This document shows, piece by piece, positions 3,395 to 47,568 of a stretch of 64,000 nucleotides of DNA. Location of the stretch: NCBI RefSeq assembly GCF_010686655.1, contig NZ_JAAGVY010000001.1, positions 186,001 through 250,000 of the forward strand, given 5' to 3'. This DNA comes from Cryomorpha ignava (GTDB lineage: Bacteria > Bacteroidota > Bacteroidia > Flavobacteriales_D > Cryomorphaceae). The translations under genes were made by a program, and so were the position numbers. Every line of letters starts with the position of its first letter. Within the stretch, counting starts at the first letter, position 1. The notes below the pieces were generated by a model that worked only from the letters and a program-made list of their open reading frames with translations, had not been told where the DNA came from and did no database searches.

Positions 3395-4783
3395 TCAGAA
3401 TTTAGTGAATGTTATTGCCAATTTAAGATTATTAGAGGGGCTTGCGGCGTTGGGATACTCTGCTCCGTTTAAAACCACCCTGTTCGGGCTGTTTCCAGCG
3501 GCGATACTTACTATTTCAAATCCGTAATGCTCGCGCTCACCAAGTAAAACCTGCTGTAAATAACGGGTAATATAAAATTCATAAACCCCATCTTCTTCGT
3601 TGTACTTTCCATAATCGAAAGGATTGTCAAACTGAAGGGTGTAAATCTTTCCCTCTTCATTTCGCGGAAAGATAAGCAGTTGCGTTGGAGGGGCAAAAGC
3701 TTCCAGATCTCCACCTCTAATAGGTAAAGTTATTTTAGCCTGATTAATGGCTATGCCCGACGAATCGCGCAGACTCTCAATATAAGGTAAGTCCAAAAAT
3801 ATTTTTGTTCCTGCCAGTGATTGTACATATACATCTTGCTGACCAAGTAGCGTATCGCCGCTTAGCTGTTGCAAAAGACTCGGAGCCGCCATAGAGTAAT
3901 CGTGCTCTATACGCTCATATTTGGGAGTCTGCCCCCTTAAGGCAAAGCTGTAAGCATACGACTCGGTAGTATCCGGAAGCTCATTTCGGTAATAGAGTCT
4001 AATGCGACTATTTCCCGTAAAGGTGTCAAACGATATCAATCCCGACTGGCTGGTATTGAATTTCGTTTCATCTACAGTAATGTAGATTCCTTTAAGAAGA
4101 GATACAAAAGTTTGATTATCAAGACCTCCACCATCACTTGCCTGAAAAAATCGGTCTGCAAAACTCTCATTCAACGGTATACGCATTTGTGGAGCCAGTA
4201 TGAGGTCGCCCACTACTACAGAATCAGTAGTATTAGGCGTTTGGTAATTGAAACCAGACTTTATCAAATCTTGAGCGATATAGTTTACAGGGGTATTCTC
4301 GTAGTAAAACGTGTCGGCTTGTAAGCTGTCTGTAATTTCAAACACTTCGAAATACTGCTCTCCCATATCACCATATACCGGACTTATAGGTTGATTTTGC
4401 ACATCTGTATTAATGTATTCCAAAATCAACACAACTGAATCTACAACAATATTATCGATTGAAGATCCTTCGGGAATAAGACTTGGGTTGTTGCTTGTAA
4501 GGCGTAATTCGCTAATATGGCCTGCCTTTGTAAACCCAAAAACAGGATCGTCAAAAGCGCCTATTATTGCCGGATTAAGCTTATCAGTTCGCACTGAATC
4601 GTCAATAACGGTATAAGCATTTATCGAAAATGTATCAACCATGTTGGCTTGCAAAAGATCGCTCCCGGGTTGTAGCTCAAGCCCAATTTCTTCTTCCGGT
4701 TTTTTACAACTTGTAGCAACCAATGCTATAGTTATAAAAAAGAGAGCGGCGCGCAATAGCGGCCGCTTCAATTTTTTATTCAT
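3395..4783 (-). CDS. DUF4270 family lipoprotein
   Basis: I place the start at 4783 (MNKKLKRPLL), which gives 462 residues, a signal peptide and a lipobox ending ATSC. A longer reading frame to 4900 would overlap the upstream gene by about 100 bases and bury the signal peptide, so I reject it. The body is a beta-rich secreted domain (EEIGLELQPGSDLL near the N-terminus) typical of DUF4270, a Bacteroidota outer-membrane lipoprotein family of unknown function. The position between a short glycogen-synthase-like gene and glmS is a recurrent arrangement in Flavobacteriales as I recall it; a link to surface glycan is inference only. Confidence 0.82.
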   Translation of the reverse strand: MNKKLKRPLLRAALFFITIALVATSCKKPEEEIGLELQPGSDLLQANMVDTFSINAYTVIDDSVRTDKLNPAIIGAFDDPVFGFTKAGHISELRLTSNNPSLIPEGSSIDNIVVDSVVLILEYINTDVQNQPISPVYGDMGEQYFEVFEITDSLQADTFYYENTPVNYIAQDLIKSGFNYQTPNTTDSVVVGDLILAPQMRIPLNESFADRFFQASDGGGLDNQTFVSLLKGIYITVDETKFNTSQSGLISFDTFTGNSRIRLYYRNELPDTTESYAYSFALRGQTPKYERIEHDYSMAAPSLLQQLSGDTLLGQQDVYVQSLAGTKIFLDLPYIESLRDSSGIAINQAKITLPIRGGDLEAFAPPTQLLIFPRNEEGKIYTLQFDNPFDYGKYNEEDGVYEFYITRYLQQVLLGEREHYGFEIVSIAAGNSPNRVVLNGAEYPNAASPSNNLKLAITFTKF

Positions 4784-4796
4784 AAGTGATTCATTC

Positions 4797-5624
4797 TTAA
4801 TCGGCAAGAACTGAATTCTCTTCCAAAATTTCATCATAAAATTCGCCATACGTTTTAACGCAGTTAGCAGGATCGCAGTATGATAATTTTGCTTTATCAA
4901 AAGAATTAACAGCCTTTGTGATTTCCTCAGGCAATTCTTTACTTCCCTCTACAACTGCATCAGAATATTTTAATGCAAGTTTAGTGAGATTCTCAAAATT
5001 AGGGTCAGTTAATTCAGAAAGATCTTTATCAGTAAAACCATCAAATTTTAATTTCTCGATAATTCCTGAATTCAAACTTCCCGTAAAGCCTTTATTATAA
5101 GCAGAGAACACGACTTTTGAATCGGCGAAGTGCGGATCATCGTTGTAAAACTTCTTAACATATAATGGCAGTAAAGATGTAAACCATCCATGGCAATGGA
5201 TAATATCCGGTGCCCAGCCCAACTTTCTTACAGTTTCCAGAACGCCACGACAAAAGAAAATGGAACGTTCATCATTGTCTTTAAAGTATTTTCCAGACTT
5301 ATCGCTAAGCACTGCTTTACGCTGAAAATAGTTTTCATTATCAATAAAGTACACTTGCATTCTGGCTGTAGGGATAGATGCAACCTTAATAATTAAAGGA
5401 TGATCTGTATCGTTTACTACCAGATTCATTCCTGAAAGTCTGATAACTTCGTGGAGCTGATGTCTTCTCTCGTTTATAGACCCATATTTAGGCATAAACA
5501 CCCTAATCTCTTTTCCTTTTTCGTGGATTCCTTGCGGAAGATTGCGCGACACTTCAGACAATTCGCTTTTTGGCAGGAAAGGTGTAATTTCCTGCGATAC
5601 GTACAAAACTCTCGGTTTCTTCAT
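4797..5624 (-). CDS. Short glycogen/starch synthase-like protein (GT5 N-terminal domain only)
   Basis: The 275 residues match the N-terminal Rossmann half of glycogen synthase: MKKPRVLYVSQEITPF at the start, then PDIIHCHGWFTSLLPLY, the usual sugar-binding helix region. The C-terminal nucleotide-sugar-binding half (normally another 200 or more residues) is absent, and the K-x-G-G-like loop reads KSELSEVSRN. Glycosyl transfer by this protein alone is therefore doubtful. Stand-alone N-terminal versions are common in this phylum. It is the first gene of the run towards glmS, with a good promoter at 5654-5684. Confidence 0.8.
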   Translation of the reverse strand: MKKPRVLYVSQEITPFLPKSELSEVSRNLPQGIHEKGKEIRVFMPKYGSINERRHQLHEVIRLSGMNLVVNDTDHPLIIKVASIPTARMQVYFIDNENYFQRKAVLSDKSGKYFKDNDERSIFFCRGVLETVRKLGWAPDIIHCHGWFTSLLPLYVKKFYNDDPHFADSKVVFSAYNKGFTGSLNSGIIEKLKFDGFTDKDLSELTDPNFENLTKLALKYSDAVVEGSKELPEEITKAVNSFDKAKLSYCDPANCVKTYGEFYDEILEENSVLAD

Positions 5625-26803: not shown

Positions 26804-27784
26804 ATGCGCGTAGCGGTAATCGGCGCCACCGGAATGGTTGGCAATATAATGCTAAAAGTATTAAAAGAACGCAAATTTCCGGCAGATGAAATCATTGCGG
26901 TCGCTTCCGAGCGATCGGCTGGGCTGGAAAAAGAGATAAACGGCAAGGTTTATAAGATTATGGGAATGGCAGAAGCTATCGCTCAAAAGCCGGATATTGC
27001 TCTTTTTTCGGCAGGTGGTGCGACCAGTTTGGAATTCGCTCCACAATTTGCCGCGGTGGGCACCACGGTTATAGACAACTCTTCCGCTTGGCGCATGTCG
27101 CCTGACCACAAACTAATCGTTCCCGAAATTAACGGCAATACGCTTACCAAGGACGATAAGATTATTGCCAATCCAAATTGCTCAACCATTCAGCTGGTAG
27201 TGACATTGGCACCACTTCACCGCAAATATGGAATTAAAAGGGTGGTTGTTTCCACATACCAATCTGTATCAGGAACCGGAGTAAATGCTGTAAGACAAAT
27301 GCTTGCAGAGCGAAGAGGCGAGCAAGCCGAGATGGTTTATCCCTACCCGATTGATCTAAACTGCATTCCGCATTGCGATGTATTTGAAGAAAACGGGTAT
27401 ACCAAAGAAGAAATGAAACTTACCAACGAGACAAAGAAAATTCTTGATAGGGCGATTGATGTTACCGCAACTGCAGTGCGTGTACCGGTGGTTGGTGGCC
27501 ATTCTGAATCGGTTAATATTTCCTTCGAAAACGATTTTGATTTGGGAGAGTTGCGCAAGCTATTGCACGATACACCGGGCATTGTACTTCAAGATAATCC
27601 AGATGTAAACAGCTACCCCATGCCGCGCTATGCACATGAGCGAGATGAGGTTTTTGTGGGTAGAATCAGACGTGACTTTTCGCAACCCAAGAGTGTGAAT
27701 TTGTGGATTGTTGCGGATAATTTGAGAAAAGGAGCTGCTACAAATGCAGTGCAGATTGCTGAGATTGTGGCGGGGTTGAAGTGA
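26804..27784 (+). CDS. asd: Aspartate-semialdehyde dehydrogenase
   Basis: Asd reduces aspartyl phosphate to the semialdehyde for lysine, threonine, methionine and diaminopimelate. The 326 residues show the NADP loop VIGATGMVG, the catalytic Cys in ANPNCSTIQLVV, and the conserved VPVVGGHSESVN with its His. The ending DNLRKGAATNAVQIAEIVAGLK is canonical. A diverged second copy of this 3' tail sits about 1 kb downstream (28798-28869), which marks an insertion or exchange at the asd end. TATTTTTG about 30 bases upstream of the ATG may be the -7 box. Confidence 0.97.
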   Translation: MRVAVIGATGMVGNIMLKVLKERKFPADEIIAVASERSAGLEKEINGKVYKIMGMAEAIAQKPDIALFSAGGATSLEFAPQFAAVGTTVIDNSSAWRMSPDHKLIVPEINGNTLTKDDKIIANPNCSTIQLVVTLAPLHRKYGIKRVVVSTYQSVSGTGVNAVRQMLAERRGEQAEMVYPYPIDLNCIPHCDVFEENGYTKEEMKLTNETKKILDRAIDVTATAVRVPVVGGHSESVNISFENDFDLGELRKLLHDTPGIVLQDNPDVNSYPMPRYAHERDEVFVGRIRRDFSQPKSVNLWIVADNLRKGAATNAVQIAEIVAGLK

Positions 27785-27841: not shown

Positions 27842-28201
27842 TTACTTTTTATCCCGACCCTTCTTATACACATCGAGTGGTTCATTTGCAATGATCTCCA
27901 GATTACTGAAAAGTACCTCATGTAAAGCTTCAATATTTCGGTGAAAACTGTCAGGCAGCCTTGCCCAGTCAAACAGTTCAACTACAATAGGGATATTGCT
28001 AAACTGAATTTTTTCTTTCAAATCCATAAAGTCCTCTACAGGCAATTTTTCGAGTTGCGGAGTTCGGATTACTAAATCTAAATCGCTTCCCTCATGGGCG
28101 GTACCGTTTACACGACTCCCATGCGCCCACACTTCAATGGGGATATTAATCGATGAAAATATCTCTATTAAGGCTTGTCTATCTTTATCTCTTAGAAGCA
28201 T
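27842..28201 (-). CDS. mntA: MntA-type nucleotidyltransferase antitoxin
   Basis: The 119-residue protein is a minimal nucleotidyltransferase. The motif GS-x10-DxD is seen in AHGSRVNGTAHEGSDLDLVI. In MntA/HepT pairs this enzyme AMPylates the HEPN toxin to silence it. I start at 28201 (MLLRDKDRQA), which overlaps the HEPN gene end by 17 bases; a longer frame to 28345 lies wholly within the HEPN gene. The antitoxin looks intact even though the upstream toxin frame is broken. Confidence 0.87.
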   Translation of the reverse strand: MLLRDKDRQALIEIFSSINIPIEVWAHGSRVNGTAHEGSDLDLVIRTPQLEKLPVEDFMDLKEKIQFSNIPIVVELFDWARLPDSFHRNIEALHEVLFSNLEIIANEPLDVYKKGRDKK

Positions 28202-28617
28202 CGTTTTGATGATTAATAATTTCTGACAATTCAGTGGCATCTGCAATAAATTGTTGAAGCAAGATGAGCGTTTCTTCGGCGAAGTTAACACCGTAGTCGT
28301 GAGCTGTGTTGTTTCGATTGTCCCTGTATTGCAGCCAACGATCACAGCTTTCGACAGAGATGATGCTTCGCAAAACTGCCTGTCTGAATATATCCTTAAA
28401 ATAAAGCTTATCTGCCTCTCTGGAGGAGTGAAAATATGGCTTTAATACTTTGCGCAGCAGCTTACCACTTTGTTCTAAAATAATTTCAAATTCTTTGATG
28501 CACGCAGATCGATACATGTCATGTGCAATATCATGTGTATCACTTTTTTTGCAACAGACCATAAGCCATTTCCAGCGTACGAATGCACCTGTCAAAGTAT
28601 GTGGTCTCGATTTTCAT
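28185..28617 (-). pseudogene. hepT: HepT-type HEPN toxin, frameshifted in a 7-base A-run
   Basis: The HEPN RNase partner of mntA. The main frame carries RNNTAHDY, a match to the R-x4-H-x-Y motif with the Tyr that MntA modifies. The N-terminus is in another frame: an ATG at 28617 reads MKIETTYFDR...LLQKK and stops at TGA 28540. The frames meet at seven A's (T's at 28544-28550). Removing one A joins them into a family-like protein of about 143 residues. Alternatives are a sequencing error, phase variation, slippage during transcription, or true decay. Confidence 0.82.
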
Positions 28618-28797: not shown

Positions 28798-28869
28798 GAT
28801 AATTTGAGAAATGCAGCGGCTACCATTGCTGTGGAAATTGCCGAGATTGTGGCGGGATTTAAAAACTGA
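28798..28869 (+). pseudogene. Displaced 3' tail of an asd gene
   Basis: The stretch reads DNLRNAAATIAVEIAEIVAG then FKN and a stop, against DNLRKGAATNAVQIAEIVAG at the end of the intact asd. By eye 54 of 66 aligned bases agree, many differences being silent. Homology begins sharply near 28795 and nothing asd-like precedes it. It is a remnant, not a gene. Confidence 0.85.
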
Positions 28870-46228: not shown

Positions 46229-46758
46229 AATTTCCTATTCTTGGGTTAAGATTTTTGAATCAGAAAGGGAACATGATAAAACCTATTTTGTTTAATGTTT
46301 TGTCTTTTTTATTAAACATTTTGAATTGATTTACCTCTGTGTATTGAAGTACGTAGTTGATTATAATATTAATACGAATTTGTTAAAAAAAGCCAAGCGT
46401 TAGATTGAGACACTAATACTTCTAATGACGGGCATATAGAAAACAATAAATAAATGAGGCTTTAACCTATATTTTTTAGGCAGTTTGGAGATGAAATCAT
46501 GCATTATTCATACGTTGCTACAATTATTAACCTATGCCGTACATCACTTCCACCCCTTCGTTTTGGCCGCACTTTCTTTTCGGCATTAAATAGGTGTCTT
46601 TATAAGTCTAGAAATGCGTAGATCTGGCAGATAAAAAATTAGATAGAGTCTGTCAATACACTCAAGTGGCTGGATCATGAAGTTCAATAGCAAGGCGCAC
46701 GCAGCATTGAACACTTAGCGAAGCGGTCTCCTATGTTTGTATTCAATCAAAATATGCC

Positions 46759-46791
46759 TTTGCTTAGATTGATTTAGGTGAGGTATATTTG
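46759..46791 (+). promoter_or_regulatory. Promoter upstream of a structured RNA candidate
   Basis: TTTG at 46759-46762, 21 bases, then TATATTTG (46784-46791) is a full consensus match in a region with no gene downstream. Transcription would start about 15 bases before a strong stem-loop. Confidence 0.6.
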
Positions 46792-46795
46792 ACGA

Positions 46796-46885
46796 CAATA
46801 AAGTGAAAAAGGATGAGAGCGAAGAAGCGGCCAAACAGCTCTTGAAGTATGTTCTTTGTGAGATAATGCCTCATCCTTTTTTATC
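46796..46885 (+). ncRNA. Candidate structured small RNA
   Basis: AAAAAGGATGAG (46806-46817) and CTCATCCTTTTT (46870-46881) pair perfectly over 12 bp around a 52-nt loop with smaller pairings (GAGC/GCTC). The distal arm ends in T's, so it could also terminate transcription. It follows a consensus promoter and precedes an IS110-type transposase scrap; an IS110 bridge RNA is one possibility, an unrelated sRNA another. Confidence 0.4.
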
Positions 46886-47015
46886 TCTTAGAGTTTGAAC
46901 AGAATGTAAGGAATAATGCATGTCGTTATATCCAGAATATCCAATTAGGAGAAAAGACGTAAGGGGGATTTTTCACTTTAGAATTATTTATTATTCATCC
47001 ATTAATCATTTCTAA

Positions 47016-47081
47016 AAGAAAACAGTACTTAGACAAGTAGTAGGTATAGACGTGGCTCAAGATGAGTTAGTTACTACCTCA
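47016..47081 (+). mobile_element. N-terminal fragment of an IS110-family transposase
   Basis: The frame reads KKTVLRQVVGIDVAQDELVT, the start of the DEDD domain of IS110-type transposases (G-I-D-V-A-Q with the first catalytic Asp). It is preceded by a stop instead of an initiator, and similarity ends at once. It is a scrap, not a working element. Confidence 0.6.
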
Positions 47082-47089
47082 CAACCGCA

Positions 47090-47275
47090 GGGCGTAATCA
47101 AGAAGTTCCGCTGGGGCGGGATGCGATGTGCTGAGCGGTGGTTATCAAGCGTAGCCGAGATGAGTCTAAGTGACTGTCATGCCGAAATGGCTTGATCTTC
47201 GATTTTCAAGACAAGGCTTCAGACCAAGCCAACGGCATGGTGCTACGCCGGTATAGGACTTTATGGACAGATACT
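47090..47275 (+). other. Structured stretch resembling group II intron domain I
   Basis: Nested perfect stems: GCGTAGC (47149) with GCTACGC (47242), CATGCCG (47178) with CGGCATG (47233), TGGCTTG (47188) with CAAGCCA (47225), plus a separate TTCCGC/GCGGGA hairpin at 47106-47121. The wording (GGGATGCGATG, GAGCGGTGGTTATC, CTAAGTGAC) recalls domain I of bacterial group II introns. No reverse transcriptase or domain V is visible, so it would be a fragment. Confidence 0.45.
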
Positions 47276-47568
47276 AGATAAACGGCTGTTGACTTAAGAG
47301 CAAAGCACGAACAGATGAATGTTTTGAATTAACTGAAATCACTTACAATAAATGATTAATCATCCAACAAAAGGCTTTTGGATTTTGCTGGCAAAATACG
47401 TGTAGAAGATTTATAGGTGATGGAAGAATCAATTAAAGAAGCTCGCGAAAAAATAGATAAAGATATATGGAAATCGTCTTTTGTATACAAACCTAAGTAA
47501 TGCTCTTTTCAAGAGGAGTCGAAAATAATGAAAGAAATAGCGGCTTATAAAATGTTTGTGCCTTGCTC

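Follow-up and report, generated by a model that had tools for sequence, protein, structure and literature searches.

The class I pairs of HEPN and MNT proteins include combinations of PF08780 with PF01909, and the motifs RX4HXY and GSX10DXD are their signatures (PMC7641770). In the HepT/MntA pair of Shewanella oneidensis (SO_3166/SO_3165), MntA silences the RNase by placing three AMPs on the RX4HXY tyrosine (PMC7641770). The locus described here, two overlapping genes on the minus strand of a 64-kb stretch of DNA (the window, meaning the whole stretch that was analysed), resembles the Shewanella pair in that the two genes are small and neighbouring and that the HEPN protein carries RX4HXY and the MNT protein GSX10DXD. 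Unlike that pair, its toxin gene is frameshifted, belongs to PF08780 instead of PF01934, and lies upstream of the antitoxin gene with an overlap of 17 nt; the antitoxin falls below the cut-off of the MntA model NF047752. A second point of comparison is HI0074/HI0073 of Haemophilus influenzae (TIGR01987, PDB 1jog). Of the relatives with a solved structure, HI0074 gives the best match to the toxin (6e-12), and it has the NTase substrate-binding type of HEPN fold, but the window toxin is split, and its 3' part reaches 49.7 bits (3.5e-13) against the TIGR01987 cut-off of 55.8. A third is the group of genes made phase-variable by homopolymer tracts, with which the toxin gene shares a frame broken by a one-base change in a homopolymer; unlike in those genes, the tract in the window is short and unconserved, a single allele was seen, and the lesions in related toxins are scattered. 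We consider it probable that the locus is a class I HepT/MntA-type module whose toxin was recently disabled by a one-base frameshift in a run of A's and whose antitoxin gene is still open.

Family and motifs of the pair

What kind of toxin-antitoxin pair does the locus encode? The mntA-like gene (27842-28201, minus strand) codes for a whole nucleotidyltransferase of 119 aa that matches PF01909 and PF18765 above cut-off and carries GSX10DXD as GSRVNGTAHEGSDLD; the preliminary description had called the antitoxin gene whole, and this is borne out. The second reading frame of the toxin matches PF08780 (NTase_sub_bind; 6e-16, residues 19-125), and its match to PF01934 (HepT-like; 3e-4) is below cut-off. 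The RX4HXY motif is present in this frame as RNNTAHDY, but in the DNA it is not joined to the start codon. A HEPN gene of PF08780 thus lies next to, and overlaps, an MNT gene of PF01909, and because RX4HXY and GSX10DXD are both present, the two genes are predicted to form a HepT/MntA pair of class I (type VII) within the PF08780 (HI0074) branch; its toxin gene is interrupted close to where helix 1 ends. The earlier naming of the toxin as HepT therefore stands as far as a HEPN toxin gene is concerned; more exactly, the protein is of the PF08780/HI0074 type, which is counted as class I in PMC7641770. The toxin is present as a single copy in the genome, and PADLOC returned no match for it.

A toxin gene split at a run of seven A's

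Where is the toxin gene broken? On the minus strand, a frame that begins with ATG (28617-28540) encodes 25 codons, MKIETTYFDRCIRTLEMAYGLLQKK, aligning with residues 1-24 of intact relatives, and ends at a TGA (28542-28540) directly 3' of seven A's (28550-28544, read as T7 on the plus strand). The second frame is open from a TTG at 28595 down to a stop at 28185, and its part from the run onward (28544-28185, minus strand), identified by the open frame and the PF08780 match, comprises 119 codons, SDTHDI...ASKR, plus the stop. A single base separates the two frames, which amounts to a frame change of +1/-2. Intact relatives, aligned with the window sequence, read without interruption across this exact junction, for example as MKIDTTYYERCVHTLAKAYGLLLK followed immediately by SDPENIDYDMYR: their N-terminus, MKIDTTYYERC...LLLK, runs directly on into SDPENIDYDMYR. 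In the window, the first frame gives MKIETTYFDRC...LLQK and the second gives SDTHDIAHDMYR; since the relatives are continuous here, the A-run is where the gene is broken. A chance neighbourhood of two ORFs can be dismissed, as each half aligns with the same protein family. The frame positions and the continuity of the relatives together confirm the earlier observation of a toxin split by one base, with frames that meet at the A7 run. The toxin ORF is incomplete, with its stop after 25 codons, and the HepT/MntA pair is therefore classed as inactivated rather than active.

The structural consequence can be judged from the modelled toxin of L009 (Dyadobacter arcticus DSM 102865), an intact relative (pLDDT 91.7), in which helix 1 spans residues 6-24, so that the break falls between helix 1 and helix 2. 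On this model, the break is predicted to take away core helix 1 and to part it from the active site. A truncated toxin initiated at the TTG at 28595 is possible as an ORF but was set aside: residues from the wrong frame would stand in place of helix 1, and that frame is used by none of the relatives. We propose that one extra A in the run near the end of helix 1 knocks out the toxin, that translation would mainly yield a peptide of 25 residues lacking the active site, and that the module is presumably non-toxic, leaving mntA as an orphan antitoxin. By analogy, an unbroken toxin would act as an RNase that is kept inactive through MntA-catalysed AMPylation of the RX4HXY tyrosine, a chemistry that we carry over to the PF08780 clade from the Shewanella pair.

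Could some full-length toxin nevertheless be made from the A7 DNA by slippage of the ribosome or RNA polymerase at the run? The run reads CAA AAA AAG TGA in context. The heptamer A AAA AAG is a -1 slip site in dnaX, and its placement here, right before the stop, resembles the dnaX shift site. However, the -1 shift favoured by this heptamer leads into the third frame, where a stop soon follows, while the toxin frame requires +1 or -2, and the downstream RNA is no more structured than shuffled sequences (z = 0.41). A programmed -1 frameshift of the dnaX type was rejected on these two counts, the wrong frame entered and no stimulatory structure. Slippage by the polymerase has a precedent, in that transcriptional slippage on A-runs rescues broken genes, such as tssM with 11 A's (PMC4256274), but selection against runs prone to transcriptional slippage acts mostly at nine bases (PMC1088944), and the run in the window is not conserved in relatives. 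We regard recoding as very unlikely.

Age and reality of the lesion

How old is the break? The 119 codons 3' of the A-run contain no further stop. Of the alignment columns that 90% or more of the relatives conserve, 39 in all, the window toxin is changed at one (Y32H), and intact relatives of the L004-L040 group carry 0-4 changes at the same columns; the mean identity of the window toxin to distant relatives is mid-range. Likewise, the antitoxin is changed at one of its 21 conserved columns (Y27H). As a side observation, the change is Tyr to His in both proteins (toxin residue 32, window 28520-28530; antitoxin residue 27, in the region of 28121-28123), at positions where every aligned relative has Tyr or Phe. 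The well-kept remainder of the toxin and its lack of a second stop indicate either that function was lost only recently or that the break is not real.

The second of these possibilities, an assembly or sequencing error in a continuous gene that would make the pair an intact, ordinary HepT/MntA module, is the main rival to recent loss of the toxin. The state of the DNA is known from one draft assembly (149 contigs) with platform and coverage not stated, the lesion is a single base in a homopolymer, and the rest of the toxin looks as conserved as in intact relatives, all of which speaks for an error. On the other hand, all 24 runs of 7-8 bases inside window ORFs of at least 180 aa stay in frame, which places the 95% upper bound on error per run at about 12%, for what is a selected set in that the runs lie inside intact long ORFs. 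Moreover, the gaps examined contain no other split gene. We judge an error unlikely, and infer that the lesion is real and fixed.

Toxin lesions among relatives

Do related loci suggest ordinary loss of the toxin or a dedicated switch? Eighty loci coding for relatives were taken from genome_contigs, with a best amino-acid identity of 79%, and a wider sample of 395 genomes in the phylum added only 8 further loci. No toxin relative was matched in viral_contigs. Gene-breaking lesions are found in the toxins of 6 of 88 relatives and comprise frameshifts, nonsense codons and a repeat insertion. For example, L016 has a one-base frameshift, CTTT instead of the CTT of its 94%-identical neighbour L018, in the same codon as the window break; this is the only one of the six at the window's junction. 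Similarly, L041 has a one-base frameshift caused by an extra T in AATAGAG, and L042 combines a frameshift near the start with an early C-terminal stop. The toxins of L017 and L035 contain nonsense codons, and that of L099 (genome G447) is interrupted beside the RX4H motif by an insert of about 200 bp (L099 1795-2010). We note that the L099 insert is a multicopy repeat: several of its copies in G447 are near-full and many are partial. In the related toxins of L100 and L102 the frame is open and the His and Tyr of RX4HXY are lost, and their MNT partners keep GSX10DXD.

By comparison, none of the 87 complete antitoxin frames is broken. The difference from the toxins (6 of 88) is modest (Fisher one-sided p = 0.015; p = 0.034 by gene-length share), and the broken relatives are mostly MAGs. 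Nor are the antitoxins untouched, since the GS motif of L033 is substituted to CS; in L073 the motif spacing differs.

The preliminary description had raised a phase-variable toxin-antitoxin pair, with a slippery run that turns the toxin on or off. In this reading, slippage of the A-run during replication would toggle a HEPN RNase toxin within the population while the AMPylating antitoxin is always made. Such a switch would account for a break whose position coincides with the longest homopolymer at the junction, for a remaining toxin gene that is well kept, and for a whole mntA. Were this the case, the locus would encode an RNase toxin subject to phase variation, and the literature searched named no phase-variable toxin-antitoxin pair. 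The tract itself argues otherwise. Phase-variable genes carry a hypermutable tract that is long or conserved, but A7 is short, the window contains 38 homopolymer runs of at least seven bases, and the tract ranges from A1 to A7 among the 80 relatives, of which L076 and L081 carry A7 within an open frame. In 31 of the 80 relatives the toxin gene contains a run of 7 or 8 at some position. The A7 run itself is unremarkable. Furthermore, no A6 allele was seen, the toxin being absent from all 7 same-family genomes checked for a second allele, and the lesions of the other broken relatives (L016, L041, L017, L035 and L099) lie outside long runs. The claim of phase variation is accordingly not upheld, and we consider the switch highly improbable.

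Ordinary inactivation is favoured over a switch because the toxins of relatives are broken in other ways and the antitoxin genes are open; judged from these sequences, the pattern of lesions most likely reflects toxin loss by whatever mutation arises. A broken HepT/MntA pair is in itself ordinary, and the window locus adds to a family pattern, in which toxin frames are broken and antitoxin frames are not, that matches in the PF08780 branch the asymmetry expected of a toxin-antitoxin pair. We suggest that the orphan antitoxin could neutralise a related incoming toxin.

Flanking repeats and possible movement of the module

The module lies between asd and a gene for a small secreted protein. It is flanked by a 65-bp direct repeat: the left member (27716-27780, plus strand) is the 3' end of asd, which is whole (26804-27784), and the right member (28798-28862, plus strand) is a left-over asd tail, 83% identical; a third copy was found nowhere in the genome. 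In the same-family genome G006 (L088), the neighbouring gene lies downstream of asd and the module is absent. Among 73 relatives, 6 have direct repeats of 35 bp or longer on the two sides of the module, no more than 500 bp away; of 479 control intervals, 1 does (p = 3e-5), and the same test of the flanks for inverted repeats gave 0. The long direct repeats often duplicate the end of a host gene. With L014 and L034 left out, the count is 4 of 73 (p = 0.001); the repeats of L014, L032 and L034 look dispersed or tandem intergenic rather than like traces of insertion.

In L037 the repeats (3615-3730 and 4718-4833) are 116 bp long and 97% identical, with just two copies in the genome. Those of L043 (617-717 and 1604-1712) are accompanied by a partial third copy in its genome, and those of L018 lie at 3765-3825 and 4769-4824. 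In L063 (3769-3885 and 4685-4802) the repeat is the 3' end of an upstream gene. Taken with the asd tail in the window, these repeats suggest that the toxin and antitoxin genes travel together as a segment of about 1 kb, leaving duplicated gene ends behind, and they may do so without a recombinase of their own. For the L063 arrangement, homologous recombination with donor flanks is an equally good explanation as insertion.

The module of L058 is 99.4% identical to that of L063 and sits about 1.4 kb away behind another gene. Integron cassettes, considered as the source of the repeats from this comparison, are not supported, as the repeats of L063 and of the window are gene 3' ends. We also observed that in the related genomes of L063, L058 and L067 the module is 97-99% identical, with the same LOG-family gene ahead of it and a differing order relative to a glycosyltransferase gene, and that tail fragments of the LOG gene mark the junctions. 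Finally, we note that elsewhere in the window a 1.3-kb stretch (46229-47568) holds no ORF of at least 80 aa, amid surroundings that are densely coding.
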